Assembly (NCBI RefSeq): GCF_015840335.1
Contig: NZ_CP060395.1
Location: 992,001 to 1,056,000, forward strand
Length of the DNA: 64,000 bases
Reading direction: 5' to 3'
DNA from: Synechococcus sp. CBW1108
Lineage (GTDB): Bacteria > Cyanobacteriota > Cyanobacteriia > PCC-6307 > Cyanobiaceae
Below are positions 2,588-39,588 of this stretch, in pieces. Position numbers and translations under genes: made by a program. The notes under the pieces are model-generated. The model did no database searches, had not been told where the DNA came from, and worked only from the letters and a program-made list of their open reading frames with translations. The stretch's first letter is position 1, and each line of letters begins with the position of its first letter.

Positions 2588-3769
2588 ATGAAGGCGATGA
2601 TCCTGGCGGCTGGCAAAGGTACTCGGGTGCGTCCCATCACGCACACAATCCCCAAGCCGATGATCCCGATCCTGCAGAAGCCCGTCATGGAGTTTCTGCT
2701 GGAGCTGCTAAAGGAGCATGGCTTTACTGAAGTCATGGTGAATGTCTCCCACCTGGCCGAGGAGATCGAGAACTACTTCCGGGATGGTCAGCGTTTTGGC
2801 GTCGAGATTGCCTACAGCTTTGAAGGCCGCATTCAAGATGGCCAACTGATCGGCGACGCCCTCGGTTCGGCCGGCGGCCTCAAAAAGATTCAGAATTTCC
2901 AGAGCTTCTTCGACGAGACCTTCGTGGTGCTCTGCGGTGATGCCCTGATCGATCTCGACCTGACCGAGGCCGTGCGGCGCCACCGGGAGAAGGGTGCCAT
3001 GGCGAGCCTGATCACCAAAAGGGTGCCCAAGGATCAGGTGAGCAGCTACGGCGTAGTGGTCACCGACGCTGACGGCCGGGTGCGCTCCTTCCAGGAGAAG
3101 CCGGCGGTGGATGAGGCCGCCAGCAACATGATCAACACCGGCATCTACATCTTTGAGCCTGAGGTGCTCGACTTCGTGCCCAGTGGCCAGCCCTTCGACA
3201 TCGCCTCAGACCTGTTCCCCAAGCTGGTGGCGGCCGGAGCGGCCTTCTATGCCCTGCCGATGGAATTTGAATGGGTGGATATCGGCAAGGTGCCCGACTA
3301 CTGGCAGGCGATTCGCAGCGTGCTGCAGGGGCAGGTGCGCCAGGTGCAGATCCCTGGCAAGGAGGTAAGGCCGGGGGTATTTGCCGGGCTCAATGTGGCG
3401 GCAGATTGGGACAAGATCAATGTGACCGGGCCCATCTATGTGGGCGGCATGAGCCGCATCGACAACGGCACCACGATCATTGGCCCGGCGATGATTGGGC
3501 CCAACTGCCACATCTGTGCAGGAGCCACGATCGACAACTCGATCATTTTTGATTACTCCCGCATCGGCCCTGGAGTGAGGCTGGTGGAAAAACTTGTGTT
3601 TGGCCGCTACTGCGTCGACCGCAACGGCGACCACTTCGACCTGCAGGAGGCAGCCCTCGACTGGCTGATCACGGACGTGCGCCGTCAGGATGTGATTTCA
3701 CCCTCACCCCAGCAGAAAGCCATGGCCGAGCTACTGGGCACCGACCTGGCCAAGAGCTCCTCAAAGTGA
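2588..3769 (+). CDS. Nucleoside-diphosphate-sugar pyrophosphorylase (mannose-1-phosphate guanylyltransferase-like)
   Basis: 393 residues. The N-terminal nucleotidyltransferase fold has the signature LAAGKGTRVRPIT (residues 6-18) with KPMIPI after it, an LCGDALIDLDL metal-site segment near residue 115 and an FQEKP motif near 165. A C-terminal left-handed beta-helix hexapeptide region (IIGPAMIGPNCHICAGATI) starts near residue 295. Such enzymes join a sugar 1-phosphate to an NTP to make a GDP-, ADP- or dTDP-sugar for cell-envelope polysaccharides; the exact substrate cannot be read from sequence alone. It ends 9 bases inside the convergent metF. Confidence 0.85.
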   Translation: MKAMILAAGKGTRVRPITHTIPKPMIPILQKPVMEFLLELLKEHGFTEVMVNVSHLAEEIENYFRDGQRFGVEIAYSFEGRIQDGQLIGDALGSAGGLKKIQNFQSFFDETFVVLCGDALIDLDLTEAVRRHREKGAMASLITKRVPKDQVSSYGVVVTDADGRVRSFQEKPAVDEAASNMINTGIYIFEPEVLDFVPSGQPFDIASDLFPKLVAAGAAFYALPMEFEWVDIGKVPDYWQAIRSVLQGQVRQVQIPGKEVRPGVFAGLNVAADWDKINVTGPIYVGGMSRIDNGTTIIGPAMIGPNCHICAGATIDNSIIFDYSRIGPGVRLVEKLVFGRYCVDRNGDHFDLQEAALDWLITDVRRQDVISPSPQQKAMAELLGTDLAKSSSK

Positions 3770-4645
3770 GGCCGTAAGGCCTGCCTGGCGCAGGATCTCG
3801 GGGATGCGCTCCTCCGCTTTGATCGCCATTAGGTGCACCCCCTGGGCGATCTGCAGGTAGGCAGCCACCTGATCGGCGGCGATTGCCACCCCTTCGGCCG
3901 CCGGGTCTGCTGCGGCCGCCAGCCGATCAATGACGACCTGGGGAATCTGAGCTCCGGGCACCACCCGGTTGATAAAAGCCGCATTGCGGGCCGACTTGAG
4001 CAGAAACACCCCCGCCAGCACCGGCAGCTGCAGGGGGGCGGCGATCTCACCGACAAATCGTTTGAGGGCTTCGCCATCCATCACCATCTGGGTTTGCACA
4101 AAACGGGCCCCGGCCTCCTTCTTGCGCACCAGCCGGCTCTTCAGGCCACTCCAGCTGGAAGACTGGGGATCCGCCGCGGCGCCTGCGAACAGGTCTGTGG
4201 GCCCGTCAGGCAGCTGGCCCTGCACCGGATCCTGGCCGGCGTTGAACTGCCGCACCAGCTGCAGTAGGCGCACGGCCTCGAGCTCATTCACCGGCCGGGC
4301 GTCCGGTTGGTCACCAGCCCGCACCGGGTCGCCGGTGAGACAGAGCAGATTGCGGATCCCGAGGGCCTGGGCGCCGAGCAGGTCGGCCTGCAAGGCAATG
4401 CGATTGCGATCCCGACAGGCCAGCTGCAGCACCGGCTCGATGCCGGCATCCAGCAGCAGGCGGCAGACAGCCAGGCTGCTCATCCGCATCACGGCCCGAC
4501 TGCCATCGGTCACATTGACGGCGTGTACCCAGCCGCGCAGGGATTCGGCGGCGGCCAGCACTCGGGCCGGGTCACCCCCCCTGGGGGGCATCACTTCCGC
4601 AGTCAGAGCTGACGCACCGCTGGCCAGGGCCTTTTGGAGCTGCAA
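3761..4645 (-). CDS. metF: Methylenetetrahydrofolate reductase
   Basis: FAD enzyme reducing 5,10-methylene-THF to 5-methyl-THF for methionine synthesis. Motifs seen: ALTAEVMPPRGGDP near the N-terminus, NVTDGSRAVMRMSS, EPVLQLACRDRNR, NLLCLTGDPVRAGD, FVQTQMVMD and PVLAGVFLLKSARNA, in the order found in cyanobacterial MetF. The start chosen is TTG at 4645, giving 294 residues, with an AAAGGA ribosome site 5 bases upstream; the open frame extends further but that part shows no family similarity. Divergent from the pedR-like gene, with about 75 bases between the starts. Confidence 0.88.
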   Translation of the reverse strand: MQLQKALASGASALTAEVMPPRGGDPARVLAAAESLRGWVHAVNVTDGSRAVMRMSSLAVCRLLLDAGIEPVLQLACRDRNRIALQADLLGAQALGIRNLLCLTGDPVRAGDQPDARPVNELEAVRLLQLVRQFNAGQDPVQGQLPDGPTDLFAGAAADPQSSSWSGLKSRLVRKKEAGARFVQTQMVMDGEALKRFVGEIAAPLQLPVLAGVFLLKSARNAAFINRVVPGAQIPQVVIDRLAAAADPAAEGVAIAADQVAAYLQIAQGVHLMAIKAEERIPEILRQAGLTASL

Positions 4646-16320: not shown

Positions 16321-17685
16321 TCAGGGGAGACCCCCCACCAGCGGCCACCAGGCGTCCGCCGCGGCCAGCTCAGCTTCGCTTTGGCCTGTGCAGCGGCGGA
16401 CCTCGGCGGCCTGGCTGTCGAGCAGGGAGCCGTGCAGCTCCTCCCCAAGGGCCTGGCGCAACAGGGCGCTGGCGGCAAAGGCGGCTGAGGCCTGGGCCAG
16501 GCTGGCGGGCAGCCGCACCGCCGCACCGGCCAGCAGACGGGCAGGATCGCCGCTTACCGGCGGCGGCAGGGGCCTGGCCTGCTCCAGCCCCGCCAGCACC
16601 ACCCCCTGCACGGCCGCCAGCAGCAGGTAGGGATTGGCCGCCAGATCCACCACCTTGAGTTCCAGGTGGGCGGCGGCCCCATCGGCGGCCGTGGGGATCA
16701 GGCGCAGGGCCGCCTCCCGGTTCTCGATGCCCCACACCTGGAAAGGCGCCGACCAGGACCCCGGTGCCAGGCGCCGGTAGGAGATCTCCAGGGGACAGGC
16801 CAGGGCCAGCAGGGCCGGCAGCTCCTCCAGCAGGGCCGCCAGCACTGCGCCACCCGCGTCGGTAAGGCCGCCGGGGCCGGCGCCCCCCTGGAGCAGCGGC
16901 AGGTCATAGCGCTGCAAGCTCAGGTGCAGATGGCCCCCATTGCCCACCCGCTCCAGGCTGGGCTTGGGACTGAAACTGCAGCGCCAGCCGGAGTGCCAAC
17001 CGAAGCGGCGCGTCACCCGCTGAATCACCAGCCGGGCGTGCACCAACCGGTCGGCAGCCTCCAGGGGCGTGCCTGGAGCGAGCGACAGCTCAAACTGGCC
17101 GGCGCCGTATTCAGGGTGGAACTGCAGCCAGGGGATGCCGGCGGCCTCAAGGGCATCGAGCAGGGCCGTGGCGTAATCCAGCCCCTCCACCAGCCGATCG
17201 GCGCCGTAGGGGCCGCCGGCAATGGCCGGTTGGGGGTCGGCATCGGGCCGATGGCTGGCCACCAGCCACTCCAGTTCGAAGCCGGCCCGCAGGACCACGC
17301 CGGCCTGGTAAAGCTGCTCCTGCTGCAGACGGCAGCAGGAGCGCTGATCGCCCACGTAGGGCTCGCCGGAGCGCTCGAAGCGTTCCCCCGGCGCCCAGGC
17401 CCAGCCGCTGCCGGGCTCAAGCAGCGCCAGGGCAGCGGCAGCGGCCCGCAGACGCAGATCGCCGTCCGGCTTGGCCAGGCGATGGGACGGATCGATGGCG
17501 CCATCGGCGCGGAAGGCATCCGAGACCGGCGAAAAGCCCACCCCCACGGCAGCCGCCGTATCAAAAGCCGCCAGGGGCACCACCTTCACCAGCGGCGCCC
17601 CGGCATGGTTCACCCAGGTGATCGCCACCCAGCGGATACCTTGATCGGCGAGGGCGGCAACCGGCGGGGACAAGGGATTAGGCAC
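16321..17685 (-). CDS. Glutamine-synthetase-family protein
   Basis: 454 residues. GS-fold motifs: FELEWLV (E of the metal site), LQFHPEYGAGQFELSLAPGT, FSPKPSLERVGNGGHLHLSL (histidine of the ammonia/ATP region), RRLAPGSWSAPFQVWGIENR and HLELKVVDLAANPYLLLAA. The protein resembles gamma-glutamyl-amine ligases (PuuA-like) and other non-GlnA members more than housekeeping GlnA, which is longer-tailed with a Tyr adenylylation site not seen here. The amine substrate is unknown. 43 bases downstream of trpB, same strand. GTG start. Confidence 0.75.
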   Translation of the reverse strand: MPNPLSPPVAALADQGIRWVAITWVNHAGAPLVKVVPLAAFDTAAAVGVGFSPVSDAFRADGAIDPSHRLAKPDGDLRLRAAAAALALLEPGSGWAWAPGERFERSGEPYVGDQRSCCRLQQEQLYQAGVVLRAGFELEWLVASHRPDADPQPAIAGGPYGADRLVEGLDYATALLDALEAAGIPWLQFHPEYGAGQFELSLAPGTPLEAADRLVHARLVIQRVTRRFGWHSGWRCSFSPKPSLERVGNGGHLHLSLQRYDLPLLQGGAGPGGLTDAGGAVLAALLEELPALLALACPLEISYRRLAPGSWSAPFQVWGIENREAALRLIPTAADGAAAHLELKVVDLAANPYLLLAAVQGVVLAGLEQARPLPPPVSGDPARLLAGAAVRLPASLAQASAAFAASALLRQALGEELHGSLLDSQAAEVRRCTGQSEAELAAADAWWPLVGGLP

Positions 17686-27240: not shown

Positions 27241-27259
27241 GGAAAAACTGGGGGTGACC

Positions 27260-27856
27260 ATGCCAGTCGATACCGATGTCGAGAAGCTGATCGCGGCCCT
27301 TGCCGAGGCGGTGATCAGCCACGCCGATGAGCTCACTGCGCTGGATCGGGCGATCGGGGATGGCGACCATGGCCTGAACATGCGACGCGGCTTCGAGGCC
27401 GTGCTCAACCAACTGCCATCCCTGGCGGGCCAACCTTTACCCGAGGCCCTCAAGGCCGTGGGGATGACCCTGGTGATGACGGTGGGCGGTGCTTCCGGCC
27501 CGCTCTACGGAACCCTCTTCCTCCAACTGGGCAAGGAACTGCCGGCCGGAGCAAATCGCCAGCAGGTCTGCACCGCCTTGGCCGCGGCCCTCACCGCCTT
27601 GAAACTCCGCGGCAAATCCGAGCGGGGCCAGAAAACGATGATCGATGCGCTGGCCCCCCCCCTGGAGGCCTTCCAGCAGGGGAAGGACCCTGTGGCTGCG
27701 GCCCTCAATGCGGCAGAGGCCACGATCCCGATGCAGGCCCAGCGCGGCAGGGCTGCCTTTCTAGGGGTGCGCTCAATCGGTCACATGGATCCCGGAGCCC
27801 GTTCCAGTGCGCTGCTGATCGCGGCCGCCGCCGCGGTAGCGGCCCAGCAGCCATGA
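27260..27856 (+). CDS. dhaL: PTS-dependent dihydroxyacetone kinase, ADP-binding subunit DhaL
   Basis: 198 residues. DRAIGDGDHGLNMRRGFEAV carries the DhaL metal/ADP aspartates and histidine; MTVGGASGPLYGTLFLQLGK and LRGKSERGQKTMIDAL and RSIGHMDPGARSSALLI complete the fold. In the PTS type, DhaL keeps a tightly bound ADP that is rephosphorylated by DhaM, then phosphorylates dihydroxyacetone on DhaK. First gene of the dha group; ATG 27260 follows chlM by 19 bases. Confidence 0.92.
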   Translation: MPVDTDVEKLIAALAEAVISHADELTALDRAIGDGDHGLNMRRGFEAVLNQLPSLAGQPLPEALKAVGMTLVMTVGGASGPLYGTLFLQLGKELPAGANRQQVCTALAAALTALKLRGKSERGQKTMIDALAPPLEAFQQGKDPVAAALNAAEATIPMQAQRGRAAFLGVRSIGHMDPGARSSALLIAAAAAVAAQQP

Positions 27857-27901
27857 ACCCAGCTGCCCCCCCTTGAGGATCAACTCAGTCCCGTAGGCAT
27901 T

Positions 27902-28270
27902 GTGGTGGTGTCCCATTCCGCCGACGTGGCCCGGGGCACCGCCGCGATCGTGGAACAGATGGTGGGCACCTCGGTGCCCCTGGCCTGGTGTGGGGGTAAC
28001 CCCAGCGGCGGGTTGGGCACCGACGTGTCAGCGATTCTCACCGCAATCGAGACGGCCTGGTCGGAACGGGGGGTGGCGATCCTGGCCGACCTGGGCGGGG
28101 CGTAACTCAACAGCGCCATGCCCATCGAGCTGCTGCCTCCAGAGCGCCAAGCTCGGGTGGTGGTCTGTCGGGCGGCGATCGTGGAGGGGGCCTTGGTGGC
28201 GGCCACCGAAGCCTCCTGCGGCTCGAGCCTCGAGCAGGTACGCGACAGCGCGGAAGCCTGGCAACCATGA
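27902..28270 (+). pseudogene. dhaM: DhaM (EIIA-type phosphocarrier), interrupted by an in-frame TAA
   Basis: DhaM passes phosphate from HPr to DhaL-ADP. The N-terminal half VVVSHSADVARGTAAIVEQM has the phosphorylatable histidine and runs to LADLGGA. A TAA (28103-28105) follows, then the same frame continues LNSAMPIELLPPERQARVVV and EGALVAATEASCGSSLEQVR to a TGA overlapping the HPr start (ATGA). Homologues read DLGSA-x-LNAEMAIELL, so exactly one residue is replaced by the stop. The second half keeps normal codon pattern and operon coupling, which suggests a recent nonsense mutation, a sequencing error or recoding. The start (GTG 27902) is uncertain. Confidence 0.8.
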
Positions 28271-28569
28271 CCCTCACCCGCACGGTGCGTCTGAGCGCAG
28301 ACAACGGTCTCCATGCCCGCCCGGCAGTGCGGGTCACCCAGCTCGTGCGCAGCTTTTGCTGTGCGGTGGAGATCAGCCTGGATGCCGCCGGTCCCTGGAT
28401 TGATGCGGGCAGCATCGTGAAGCTGATGGCCGGCCGTCTGCTGCCCGGGAGCCTGGTGCATCTGCGGGCGACGGGAACGGACGCGGAAGCGGCTCTCACC
28501 GCCCTGGTGAGCCTGCTGGGGGATGGGCCAAGCGAGGGAGAGTCACCAAGCAATGCCAGTGGCCACTGA
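28267..28569 (+). CDS. HPr-family phosphocarrier protein
   Basis: 100 residues. VRLSADNGLHARPAVRVTQL carries the HARPA motif with the phospho-histidine near residue 16; DAGSIVKLMAGRLLPGSLVH corresponds to the HPr regulatory/binding helix region. It would carry phosphate from EI to DhaM. Overlaps dhaM by 4 bases and EI by 17. Confidence 0.9.
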   Translation: MTLTRTVRLSADNGLHARPAVRVTQLVRSFCCAVEISLDAAGPWIDAGSIVKLMAGRLLPGSLVHLRATGTDAEAALTALVSLLGDGPSEGESPSNASGH

Positions 28570-30169
28570 GCGGAAGGGGCAGGCGGCCGCCCCAGGGCTG
28601 GCCCTGGCCCCCCTGGAGGAGCTCCTGCCAACACTCTCTCCAGGCACCCCAGCACAAGAAACCAAGGCAGATCCGGCTGCCGAGCGCTCCCGCCTTGAGC
28701 AGGCCATCAGGGCGGCGATCGGGGGGCTCAACACCCTGGTGGCACAAGCGGATTCCGAAGCAGGGGAGATCCTGGCCTTTCAGGTGGCGATGCTGGAGGA
28801 CCCCAACCTGGCCGAACCCGCCTGGCAGGCCATTGCGACCGGCAGCCCGGCCGGCAGCGCCTGGACGTTGGCCACCGCCCCCCTGATTGCCGACTTCGAA
28901 GGCTCAGGCGATGCCCTATTTGCCGCCAGGGCCAGTGATCTATGCGATCTGCGCGACCGGGTACTGGCAGAACTGAACGGCACCCCGGCCGGCCCGCTGA
29001 ATCAGCAGCCTGGCGCGACCGTGCTCCTGGCCGATGACCTCAGCCCCTCTCAGTTTCTGAGCTGGACCTGGCATCCCGGCTCAGCCATTGCCCTGCGCCG
29101 GGGCAGTGCAGCCAGCCATCTGGCCCTGCTGGCCCGCTCGCGGGGGATTCCCATGGTGGTTGGGCTGGGTCCTCTCGATGCCGCCGGCCATCAACTGGCC
29201 CTGGTGGATGGCGATAGCGGCCGCGTTGTGCTCAGCCCGGATCCTGTAGAACAAGCGCGCATGGCCCATGCCCCAAAGGATCCGGCGAGCTTGTCAGCGG
29301 GGGATCCCTACGTGATGGGGCCTGCCCGGACGGGCGATGGCGTAGCCATCAACCTGCAGCTCAACATCAACGGCGTGGAAGACCTGGCTGGCCTGAATCC
29401 GGGCTGCTGCGACGGCATCGGGCTGGTGCGCAGCGAATTTCTGTTCAGCCAGGGGCTGCCCAGGCAAGACCAGCAGTTCCAGGCCTACCGGCGGATCCTG
29501 GAGTGGGCCGATGGCCGGTCGGTGACGATCCGCACCCTCGATGCCGGCGGCGACAAACCCATTCCAGGACTGTCCCTTCCCGAGGAGGCGAACCCGTTCC
29601 TCGGCTGCCGGGGCCTGCGCTTCTCCCTCGCCCATCCCGCCCTGTTTGAGGTGCAACTGAGGGCCCTGGCCCGGGCGGCCTGCGAAGGAGACCTGCGCAT
29701 CCTGTTGCCAATGGTGACCCTGCCGGCCGAATTGGACGCGGCCAGCGCCCTGCTGGATAAAGCCGTTGCTGACCTGCGGTCCGAGGGGCTGCCTGCCCGC
29801 CGGCCACCGCTGGGGGTGATGGTGGAAGTGCCGGCTGTGGCGATCAAGCCGGCGTTGTTCAGCCGCGCCGCCTTCTTCTCGATCGGCAGCAACGACCTCA
29901 CCCAGTACGTGATGGCTGCAGCCCGCGACAACACCAGCGTGAGCTCCCTGCACGACTGCGCCCATCCCGCTGTGACCGCCTTGATCGAGCAGGTGGTGAA
30001 AGCCGGCGCCAGCCTGGGAATTCCGGTGAGCCTCTGTGGCGACATGGCGGGCGATCCCAACCACCTGGCCGCCCTGCTGAACGCAGGCTTGCGCCGGCTA
30101 TCGGTGGCGCCAGCCTGGCTGGGTGCCACCAAACGCCACCTGGCCCAACTGAGCTGTGGCAGGAGCTGA
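28553..30169 (+). CDS. ptsI: Phosphoenolpyruvate-protein phosphotransferase (Enzyme I)
   Basis: EI takes phosphate from PEP and gives it to HPr. About 538 residues from ATG 28553 (an ATG at 28523 is in frame). The active histidine lies in RRGSAASHLALLARSRGIPM near residue 185; PEP-binding motifs GIGLVRSEFLF, TIRTLDAGGDKPIPG, MVEVPAVAIKP, FFSIGSNDLTQYVMAAARDN and VSLCGDMAGDP (catalytic Cys) are intact. E. coli DhaM carries EIIA, HPr and a partial EI in one chain; here these are separate genes. Confidence 0.93.
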   Translation: MPVATERKGQAAAPGLALAPLEELLPTLSPGTPAQETKADPAAERSRLEQAIRAAIGGLNTLVAQADSEAGEILAFQVAMLEDPNLAEPAWQAIATGSPAGSAWTLATAPLIADFEGSGDALFAARASDLCDLRDRVLAELNGTPAGPLNQQPGATVLLADDLSPSQFLSWTWHPGSAIALRRGSAASHLALLARSRGIPMVVGLGPLDAAGHQLALVDGDSGRVVLSPDPVEQARMAHAPKDPASLSAGDPYVMGPARTGDGVAINLQLNINGVEDLAGLNPGCCDGIGLVRSEFLFSQGLPRQDQQFQAYRRILEWADGRSVTIRTLDAGGDKPIPGLSLPEEANPFLGCRGLRFSLAHPALFEVQLRALARAACEGDLRILLPMVTLPAELDAASALLDKAVADLRSEGLPARRPPLGVMVEVPAVAIKPALFSRAAFFSIGSNDLTQYVMAAARDNTSVSSLHDCAHPAVTALIEQVVKAGASLGIPVSLCGDMAGDPNHLAALLNAGLRRLSVAPAWLGATKRHLAQLSCGRS

Positions 30170-30230
30170 GCCCACACACTGAACTGAAGCCACAGACTGA
30201 ACGACGAGACCGCTCAGCGAGGTTGGCGCT

Positions 30231-31262
30231 TTGCAGAAGTTCCTCAACAGCCCGGAAACGCTGCTGGCCGAGAGCCTTGCCGGGTTGGCCGGCGCCCATA
30301 GCGACATCCTGAAGCTGGGATCCGACGGGCGTTACGTGTGTCGGCGGCAGCCGGTGACGGGCAAGGTGGCGCTGATCTCCGGCGGCGGGGCAGGCCATGA
30401 ACCGCTCCATGCCGGCTTCGTGGGTCTGGGGATGCTCGACGCCGCCTGTCCAGGGCAGGTCTTCACCTCCCCCACGCCAGACCAAATGCTGGCGGCCATA
30501 GCGGCAGTGGATGGGGGTGCCGGCGTGCTGTTCATCGTCAAGAACTACGCAGGCGACGTGATGAATTTCGAGATGGCCGCTGAGATGGCCAGTGAAATGA
30601 CCAGTGAGATGGCCGCTGCGGGCTCCGAGCTGGAGATTCTGACCGTGCTCACCAACGACGATGTGGCCGTGGAGGAGTCGACGTGGTCGAGCGGCAGGCG
30701 GGGCGTAGCCGGCACCCTGGTCGTCGAGAAGCTGCTGGGGGCTGCAGCGGAACAGGGGATGGGGCTGGCCGATCTCAAAGCCCTGGGAGACCGCACCAAC
30801 AGCCTCACCCGCACGATGGGCGTGGCCCTGAGCAGCTGCACCGTGCCAGCCGCAGGCACACCCACCTTCAACCTGGGCGAGGCGGAAATCGAAATGGGCG
30901 TGGGCATCCACGGCGAGCCAGGCCGCCGGCGGCAGGCCTTCACCAGTGCCGATGCCATCACTGACGAACTCCTGCATGCCATCTGCGACGATCTGGCCGC
31001 CGCCGGCCTGGAGCCGGGCGACATCCTGCTGTTCATCAACGGCTTTGGCGGCACGCCGCTGATGGAGTTGCACCTGCTCTACAACGCAGCCCGGCACAGG
31101 CTCGAGCAAAGAGGTTTCCGAGTGCAGCGCTCCCTGGTGGGCTCCTACGTGAACTCCCTGGAAATGGCCGGTGCCTCGATCACGGTCTCCCTGCTCGATG
31201 GGCAGGCCCTACGCCTCTGGGATGCCCCGGTGCACACCGCAGCCCTCCGCTGGGGATGCTGA
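30231..31262 (+). CDS. dhaK: Dihydroxyacetone kinase, substrate-binding subunit DhaK
   Basis: 343 residues. LISGGGAGHEPLHAGFVGLG is the dihydroxyacetone-binding loop; IEMGVGIHGEPGRRR holds the histidine that forms a hemiaminal with the substrate; LFINGFGGTPLMELHLLYN is conserved. A four-unit 12-bp repeat (30570-30617) encodes EMAA/EMAS/EMTS/EMAA after VMNF, longer than usual DhaK at this point. TTG start with GAGG 8 bases upstream. Last gene of the dha group. Confidence 0.92.
   Translation: MQKFLNSPETLLAESLAGLAGAHSDILKLGSDGRYVCRRQPVTGKVALISGGGAGHEPLHAGFVGLGMLDAACPGQVFTSPTPDQMLAAIAAVDGGAGVLFIVKNYAGDVMNFEMAAEMASEMTSEMAAAGSELEILTVLTNDDVAVEESTWSSGRRGVAGTLVVEKLLGAAAEQGMGLADLKALGDRTNSLTRTMGVALSSCTVPAAGTPTFNLGEAEIEMGVGIHGEPGRRRQAFTSADAITDELLHAICDDLAAAGLEPGDILLFINGFGGTPLMELHLLYNAARHRLEQRGFRVQRSLVGSYVNSLEMAGASITVSLLDGQALRLWDAPVHTAALRWGC
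30570..30617 (+). repeat. Four 12-bp in-frame tandem repeats inside dhaK
   Basis: Units at 30570, 30582, 30594 and 30606, each close to GAGATGGCCGCT, encode EMxx four times. They lie in the helix after the conserved NYxGDVMNFE segment. Confidence 0.75.
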
Positions 31263-31274
31263 GCTGGCTGTTCA

Positions 31275-31440
31275 GCGCACCACAGTTGGGTGGGGGGCTC
31301 CATCACCAGCAGGTCGCCATGGGCCAGCTCCAGGTTGAAGGGCTCGCCGGGGGTGCCGGAGAGGGGGCACTGGAGAGGAGACTGGCGGGGCTGGGCCTTG
31401 GCCGCAGGCCAACCAGCCCCCTGATCCGATGCCAGACTCT
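31275..31440 (-). pseudogene. AlkB-like fragment 1
   Basis: Reading the minus strand gives CPLSGTPGEPFNLELAHGDL then LVMEPPTQLW, and upstream in a shifted frame LRPRPSPASLLSS. These match the 2OG-oxygenase core of the intact AlkB gene in this window (SCAPFNLPLDNGDLLLMEPP then TQLWW), with clear divergence, so this is a separate copy rather than a recent duplicate. It has no start, ends after the tryptophan and is broken by a frameshift. Confidence 0.65.
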
Positions 31441-31471
31441 TACTTGGCGGAGGGCACCGGGCAAAGGGGAG

Positions 31472-31678
31472 ATGAACGATATTCTTTTTGTAGTGGAAGA
31501 AGCCGAGGACGGGTCATTCAGAGCCAATGCCGTTGGCAGTTCGATTCATACCGAGGCAGAGGATTTGGAGCAGCTGCATCAAGAGATCCGTGATGCCGTG
31601 CAATGCCACTTTGAGGAGGGTGATGCGCCCCCGTTGATACGCCTTCATCACGTGCGCCAGGAACTGCTGGCCCTGTGA
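31472..31678 (+). CDS. hicB: HicB-like antitoxin
   Basis: 68 residues. MNDILFVVEEAEDGSFRANA then VGSSIHTEAEDLEQLHQEIR and DAVQCHFEEGDAPPLIRLHH is the short HicB-like family often mis-named after 2-oxoisovalerate dehydrogenase. An AAGGGGAG ribosome site sits directly before ATG 31472. The following hicA overlaps by GTGA but is internally deleted, so this antitoxin has lost its toxin. Confidence 0.8.
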   Translation: MNDILFVVEEAEDGSFRANAVGSSIHTEAEDLEQLHQEIRDAVQCHFEEGDAPPLIRLHHVRQELLAL

Positions 31679-31876
31679 AGATCCCCCGTGATCTCGATGG
31701 TGCAGAAAAGTGGCAGGCACATGCGACTCACTCGCCTGCTGCCGAACGGGCAGCAACACCTCACCATCCCCGCCCATAAACCTTGGCGTGTGGGCACACT
31801 CCGGCAGATCCTCAAGGACGTGGCCAATCAAGTTGGCACCAATCTGGACGCGCTGATCCAAGCGCTGGATGCCTAA
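31675..31876 (+). pseudogene. hicA: HicA toxin with internal deletion
   Basis: From GTG 31675 the frame reads VKIPRDLDGAE, the usual HicA start. The rest, VQKSGRHMRLTRLLPNGQQH then LTIPAHKPWRVGTLRQILKD and VANQVGTNLDALIQALDA, is the HicA core with the catalytic histidine but in another frame. About 14-15 residues between the two parts, normally (L/V)VKAL..LGYE, are missing. A small deletion with frameshift has therefore inactivated the toxin. Confidence 0.75.
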
Positions 31877-31879
31877 GCG

Positions 31880-31950
31880 GCTCAGGGGGTTCCATCAACA
31901 GCAGATCGCCGTTGCTCAAAGGGATGTTGGACGGGGGGCGCAACTTCTGC
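31880..31950 (-). pseudogene. AlkB-like fragment 2
   Basis: Minus-strand reading gives KLRPPSNIPLSNGDLLLMEP followed by PEPL, matching CAPFNLPLDNGDLLLMEPPT of the intact AlkB. It differs from fragment 1 in sequence. Only about 25 residues survive. The two fragments flank the hicBA remnant. Confidence 0.6.
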
Positions 31951-31960
31951 CGCCACCGGT

Positions 31961-32430
31961 GCTCCCTAGGATCCAGCCCATTCCGAGGCCCATTGCCGCG
32001 CTCGACGCCTTTCGAGCGCTGGAACCGCATCTACAGCGCGTCGGACGACGGTGGACAACGTGCTGGCCTGGCTGCAGGAGCAGGTAAACCTGGGCGAGCG
32101 CAACTTCTGCGATCTTTCGGAAGCGATGGTGGCTGAAGCCCGACGCCGCGCCGGTGAGGCCGGCATCAGCCGCGAGCAGCTGCAGTTGAGCGCCTCCGAC
32201 CTGGAGAGCCTGGAGGGCCGCTACGACACAGTGATCTGCCTGGATGTGTTCATCCACTACCCCCAGGCCCCGCCGAGGAGATGGTGCGCCATCTGGCTGG
32301 CATGGCTGATAAGCACCTGATCTTGAGCTTCGCCCCTTACACCCCCCTGCTGGCGCTGCTCAAGGGCATCGGCCAGCTGTTCCCTGGCCCCTTTTACTTC
32401 TCAAGGCTGCTGGCGTTTGAGCGGGCCTGA
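31961..32430 (+). pseudogene. chlM: chlM pseudogene with several internal deletions
   Basis: Homology to intact chlM begins in the leader (GCTCCCTAGGATCC, 31961; intact 26480) and ends with FYFSRLLAFERA plus stop. The start ATG is ACG (32005). Compared with the intact gene about 68 bases after the start, about 45 after SDD, about 70 including the SAM motif DAGCGVG, and about 95 before FYFSR are missing; a one-base loss near 32268 shifts the frame in HYPQAPAEAM. Retained blocks such as ASDLESLEGRYDTVICLDVF are nearly identical. Confidence 0.9.
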
Positions 32431-38993: not shown

Positions 38994-39506
38994 TCAGCTC
39001 GTCAGCCAGATGAAGCCCAGCACCCCCACCAGGGCGAGCAGGGCCTGGGCCAGGCGGCTCACCAGCATCCCCGCCACCACCGCCAGGCCCACCTGAAGCG
39101 CCCGCCCCGGGGCACCGCGGGCCGCCAGCCACTGGGCCAGGCTGCCCCCCAAGAAGGGGCCCAGCAACACACCCAGCACTGGCCCACCCACCGGCAGGGC
39201 CGGCAACAGACCCAGCAGCCCAGCCAACAGCCCCAACCCCGCCCCGATCGGGGCCCAGCGACTGGCCTGCAGCCGGGCGGGTCCAAGCAGCAGCCCCAGG
39301 GCCTCGGCTGCCCAGCCGAGCAGCAACAGCAGCCCGGCCAGCAGCAGGGGCGGCCAGGCGGCATGCCAGCCCACCGCCCACAGCCAGAGCAGGGCCCCCA
39401 GGGGCAGCAAGGCCAAACCAGGCAACACGGGCAGCAGGGCGCCGGGGATCGCCAGCAGCTGGATCCCCAGGGCAACCCACCAGACCAGCGATGGGTCCAG
39501 CATCAA
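38994..39506 (-). CDS. DUF456-family membrane protein
   Basis: 170 residues, nearly all hydrophobic, about four to five helices rich in Leu, Gly and Ala. The N-terminal PGALLPVLPGLALLPLGALL and central GPVLGVLLGPFLGGSLAQWL (PxxG pattern) match DUF456. Function unknown. Confidence 0.78.
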   Translation of the reverse strand: MMLDPSLVWWVALGIQLLAIPGALLPVLPGLALLPLGALLWLWAVGWHAAWPPLLLAGLLLLLGWAAEALGLLLGPARLQASRWAPIGAGLGLLAGLLGLLPALPVGGPVLGVLLGPFLGGSLAQWLAARGAPGRALQVGLAVVAGMLVSRLAQALLALVGVLGFIWLTS

Positions 39507-39588
39507 CCCTGCCCCGCCATCAAACCATTGCGGGCCGGGTGCGAAAGCCTGTCTCGATCGCTACCGTCCGGCACAACTGCTTTTGATC

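Follow-up and report, generated by a model that had tools for sequence, protein, structure and literature searches.

Clusters that bring together HPr, Enzyme I (EI) and DHA kinase genes are described for Mesorhizobium loti and Bradyrhizobium japonicum in the portion of a 2008 survey cited here (PMC2405797), which also gives the PTS as absent from Cyanobacteria. The proteobacterial operon of this kind, represented by loci of Azospirillum (L115), Aestuariivirga (L119) and Bradyrhizobium (L134), has the order dhaL-dhaM-HPr-EI-dhaK, identical in 75 of 80 loci. The same five genes are detected by tblastn in four other Cyanobiaceae genomes (G163, G194, G652 and G688), with the dhaL of G163 cut by a contig end. 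In G688, unlike the locus described here, dhaM and HPr lie within one open frame. DhaM domains also occur in open frames of 830–875 codons (L005–L029) in 25 other cyanobacterial genomes out of 386 searched; these are probably DhaM-HPr-EI fusions. A further cyanobacterium carries a weakly DhaM-like 3′ fragment that contains one TAA (L030, G522:C140:400-546; E 3.1e-5). We analyzed a 64,000-nucleotide stretch of the Synechococcus sp. CBW1108 genome (hereafter the window, whose positions are used throughout) that carries an operon of this type. The window DhaM is up to 71–72% identical to its proteobacterial counterparts and 61–63% identical, over the alignment, to those of the four other Cyanobiaceae. 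Its nearest relatives found are alphaproteobacterial (Azospirillum, 71%; best 80 of 161 loci).

The window operon has the order dhaL-dhaM-HPr-EI-dhaK, and all genes except dhaM are open (Table 1). Asp29, Asp34 and Asp36 of DhaL, His56 and His227 of DhaK, His16 of HPr, and His199 and Cys505 of EI, all of which have catalytic roles, are conserved both in the window and in each aligned row that covers them. With open DhaK, DhaL, HPr and EI genes and these conserved residues, the locus qualifies as a PTS-dependent DHA kinase operon. A preliminary description had reported a single TAA in dhaM with everything else intact and the catalytic residues of the other phosphorelay genes kept. The residues are indeed kept and the other four genes are open, but the start of dhaM has also been lost and dhaK begins with TTG, where all four relatives have ATG at the identical position.

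Table 1 Features of the dha-PTS operon in the window.
Feature	Position	Strand	Evidence
Stretch holding the dha-PTS operon, unmatched in contig C24 of genus mate G143	27242..31277	.	blastn
dhaL, open, DGDHG aspartates retained	27260..27856	+	profile matches, alignments
Conserved ATGA start of dhaM, opening just 7 codons (MNPAAPP) before TGA 27874-27876	27853..27876	+	sequence, relatives
Seven-C run between the conserved ATG and the DhaM body	27866..27872	+	sequence
dhaM body (EIIA-Man), lacking a start codon up to and including the first conserved residue	27893..28270	+	alignments, start scan
In-frame TAA inside the EIIA-Man domain	28103..28105	+	sequence and homologue alignments
ATG 12 bases past the TAA, where a 50-residue fragment may restart	28118..28120	+	sequence
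HPr, open, His16 retained	28267..28569	+	profile match, alignment
Enzyme I, open, His199 and Cys505 retained	28523..30169	+	profile match, alignment
dhaK, open, TTG start where relatives have ATG; His56 and His227 retained	30231..31262	+	alignments

The TAA lies in frame inside the match to PF03610 (EIIA-man), and the frame around it reads ILADLGGA-stop-LNSAMPIELL before running on to a TGA (28268–28270) that overlaps the HPr ATG, so that the split of the EIIA domain, the continuation of the frame and the ATG shortly beyond the stop are all as first described. The 5′ part alone matches profile positions 1–69 of 116 in PF03610 (1.7e-13). It scores 72 bits against TIGR02364 (dha_pts), under the cut-off of 98.25, which is passed (123.4 bits) only when an X is put at the stop. 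A profile built from the window and its four relatives matches the DhaM-type EIIA structures 3b48, 3ct6 and 3cr3 over nearly the whole domain, whereas the window frame halts at residue 72 of 127 alignment columns. Ahead of the stop, the phosphorylated histidine (His18, in the VSHS motif) is retained, as in all 84 homologous rows. The expectation that homologues carry an ordinary residue at the TAA is borne out group by group. The column holds Glu in 80/80 proteobacterial loci, mostly from alphaproteobacteria, and Ala in all four Cyanobiaceae, so that each of these 84 aligned homologues has a sense codon. In 24 other cyanobacterial loci (those of the 25 loci L005–L029 that passed a motif filter, L027 having failed it) it holds Leu (20), Val (3) or Met (1). 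TAA and a Glu codon differ by a single substitution, as would fit the proteobacterial type of the window DhaM.

The beginning of dhaM is disrupted as well. In all four of the other Cyanobiaceae copies the gene starts at an ATGA overlapping the dhaL stop and, unlike in the window, proceeds uninterrupted; the window retains this ATGA at 27853–27856, but out of the DhaM frame. The distance from the ATG to the conserved VGIV is 40 bases in the window versus 6 in the relatives and, because the net difference of 34 is not divisible by three, the ATG opens only a seven-codon peptide. Between the in-frame stop upstream and the first conserved DhaM residue, the window has no ATG, GTG or TTG, whereas all 84 homologues have an in-frame start at or before that residue, at most 12 codons away in 83 of them. 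The proteobacterial matches likewise differ from the window in being free of stops in 80/80 loci, each with an in-frame start. The first GTG in the DhaM frame (27902) encodes the fourth residue of VGIV. Since the position of the dhaM start varies among proteobacterial loci, an unusual start such as this GTG may be used. The window therefore lacks one continuous DhaM frame with a start codon, and carries two disabling lesions at places where 84/84 homologues have a start and a sense codon.

A sequencing or assembly artifact would leave dhaM intact in the organism and make both lesions false. The start lesion does sit at a seven-C run, where length errors typically arise, and the TAA could be a one-base misreading of the Glu codon seen in every proteobacterial locus. 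An error in the single codon would nevertheless leave the start lesion unexplained, so this reading needs at least two errors inside about 250 bases of dhaM, which is unlikely. The quality of the surrounding DNA also speaks against it. Among 27 homopolymers of at least six equal bases, 26 are gap-free in the 31.5 kb that align to the genus mate G143, although the same alignment holds 24 gaps of lengths not divisible by three, of which several lie next to each other and add up to a multiple of three. Comparison of high-identity ORFs with G143 at first raised flags in both directions, for 10 of 37 and for 10 of 39; six flagged ORFs were aligned and looked antisense, spurious or N-terminally extended, so the comparison was repeated with a codon-position filter. 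This left 30 of 38 shared ORFs intact and eight flagged, none judged a clear lesion and one unsure. The flagged ORFs labelled 19195 and 34808 were judged to reflect window or insert edges and those labelled 40752 and 46084 start-site differences; 49055 was judged to run antisense to an alkB-like gene, 50702 to have a stop that precedes the start of the gene itself and 39221 to have low coverage, while 54975 (window 39010–39525) is the unsure case. The filter is rough: its 38 ORFs probably include some that are not genes, and it omits the alkB-like and rlu-like genes; both of these align full length in a comparison of the chlM region with genus mates. Apart from the 24 non-triplet gaps, the shared DNA around the insert thus appears to bear little sign of assembly error, and we regard an artifact as unlikely.

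Two lesions within about 250 bases instead favor a young dhaM pseudogene in an accessory dha-PTS operon of alphaproteobacterial kind, a reading to which we assign a probability of roughly 0.84. A length change between the conserved ATGA and the protein body would have cost dhaM its start, and the TAA within the EIIA-Man domain would be a further lesion. We infer the loss of DhaM activity and the order of the lesions. The preliminary description had offered four readings: loss of the link, a split protein, readthrough and error. The first is now the best supported, with the start lesioned as well, and the other three have become less likely.

For a split protein or readthrough this is because the lost start demands a further unusual event. 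Were the halves of dhaM to work as a split protein, fragments running from GTG 27902 to the TAA and from ATG 28118 to the TGA at 28268 would join into a functional EIIA. Both start codons exist, and the frame past the TAA is open and homologue-like. The first fragment would, however, be without its conserved beginning, at or before which all 84 homologues start, and none of the 84 is split at the position of the TAA. Residues invariant in all 84 others are moreover altered after the stop (Ala to Pro and Pro to Ala), as are three before it. We consider such a protein highly improbable. Recoding would have to combine a forward slip at the C run and TGA 27874 with readthrough of the TAA, which together would yield the whole domain as a trace of full-length DhaM. 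The slip site, with proline codons before a stop, resembles known +1 shift sites. Two low-frequency events are required, however, and all 44 tRNA matches of the genome could be typed without any that reads a stop codon; one with the anticodon 'taa' (L098) was considered as a suppressor and rejected as an ordinary tRNA-Leu. The window has no Rfam match at gathering score, and none of the 84 homologues has a stop in the TAA column, so that neither a suppressor tRNA nor a stop conserved in relatives marks dhaM as a readthrough gene. Recoding is accordingly extremely improbable. More broadly, it is very unlikely that the relay works without a normal DhaM, whether through two fragments, trace protein from slippage and readthrough, or direct transfer from HPr to DhaL. 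As a mechanism, a broken dhaM is most likely ordinary and not a case of new gene decoding.

Drift within dhaM, as relaxed constraint beyond the stop would predict, is no more than suggestive. At columns invariant in the four relatives, the window retains 43 of 50 residues before the stop versus 20 of 34 after it (p 0.009), and a control that set G194 against the other three relatives showed no such gap (50/61 before, 34/43 after). Measured against the 84 homologues, the window departs at 9 of 30 conserved columns after the stop versus 5 of 46 before (p 0.066), and by mean identity of the two halves it ranks third of 85, with the relative G688 showing a larger gap. Departures at conserved columns amount to 6.9% in DhaL, 7.7% in EI, 9.2% in DhaK, 16% in DhaM and 20% in HPr, and G194 itself reaches 18.7% in DhaM. 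Since the larger comparisons weaken the effect and HPr departs as much, we dropped the claim that excess decay past the stop is strong proof. The lesions are probably young; because the rest of the operon is open, either they are recent or the operon retains some use.

The host genome, a single contig of 3.226 Mb that is 98.5% complete, yielded one EIIA-Man on searching, the broken dhaM. Whole-genome searches found no second DhaM copy or replacement carrier, no PTS_EIIA_2 and no glycerol kinase. The operon itself occupies a site that is empty in the other members of the genus inspected. Blocks of blastn similarity to G143, 92–96% identical where longer than 1 kb, stop at 27241 and restart at 31278, from where 31278–31412 matches a displaced G143 piece and 31401–31882 matches G143 DNA directly behind chlM. 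The dha genes are absent from the chlM site in 7/7 genus mates inspected, and a DhaM search across the other 15 genomes of this genus found none, in a sample of which 11 of 16 genomes (own included) are at least 90% complete and some only 82–88%.

Behind the operon lie an alkB-like fragment (31278–31361), a HicB/HicA-like pair (about 31400–31876), a second alkB-like fragment (31885–31939) and a decayed partial copy of chlM (31951–32391); the alkB-like and HicB/HicA-like names are by resemblance only, and NCBIfam gave no name for 31256–31675. Pieces of chlM also occur near chlM in G143 and G106, and the small HicB/HicA-like pair occurs twice in G143. We had considered the decayed chlM copy as a scar of operon insertion and rejected this, as such chlM pieces are found in G143 and G106, which lack the operon; the region 31278–32391 is perhaps an insertion hotspot. 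Elsewhere in the window, a gene on the minus strand (16483–17685) aligns to residues 1–401 of a 571-codon G143 ORF and ends abruptly at 16483, next to a stretch that is absent from G143.

A first scan of genome contigs with EI gave no match. Across 400 family genomes, own included, EI matches at 49–51% identity were found in four others, and only broken pieces of EI and DhaK remain in G607, so the operon is patchy and is decaying elsewhere too. The G607 remnant (L047, G607:C52, about 3026–4149) consists of EI in overlapping pieces with a TAG, together with DhaK fragments. It resembles the window operon in being damaged, with frame breaks and a stop, but is far more decayed, with DhaL, DhaM and HPr all unmatched at E 1e-3. 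The window operon was likely gained horizontally from an alphaproteobacterium-like donor. A tree of DhaL, EI and DhaK (47 of 82 rows, with Bradyrhizobium thinned to 4) places the window, the four other Cyanobiaceae and the proteobacteria in an unresolved base, and neither joins nor separates the Cyanobiaceae operons with support; these may have had one origin or several. Among the matches listed in a search of literature titles and abstracts, none concerned a broken dhaM of this kind.

Taken together, these results indicate that the finding of an interrupted dhaM is real, slightly richer than first described and ordinary in kind. The locus shows that a few Cyanobiaceae carry a PEP-dependent phosphotransferase operon, in contrast to the absence of the PTS from Cyanobacteria reported in the cited portion of the 2008 survey (PMC2405797). 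Because no DhaM would be left to carry phosphate from EI and HPr to DhaKL, the relay should be dead and the remaining operon genes should go on to decay. If the relay still works, the seven-C run could be a length switch for the operon. As a pseudogene, dhaM would capture an accessory operon as it loses the sole link that supplies its kinase with phosphate while the other genes are still open.
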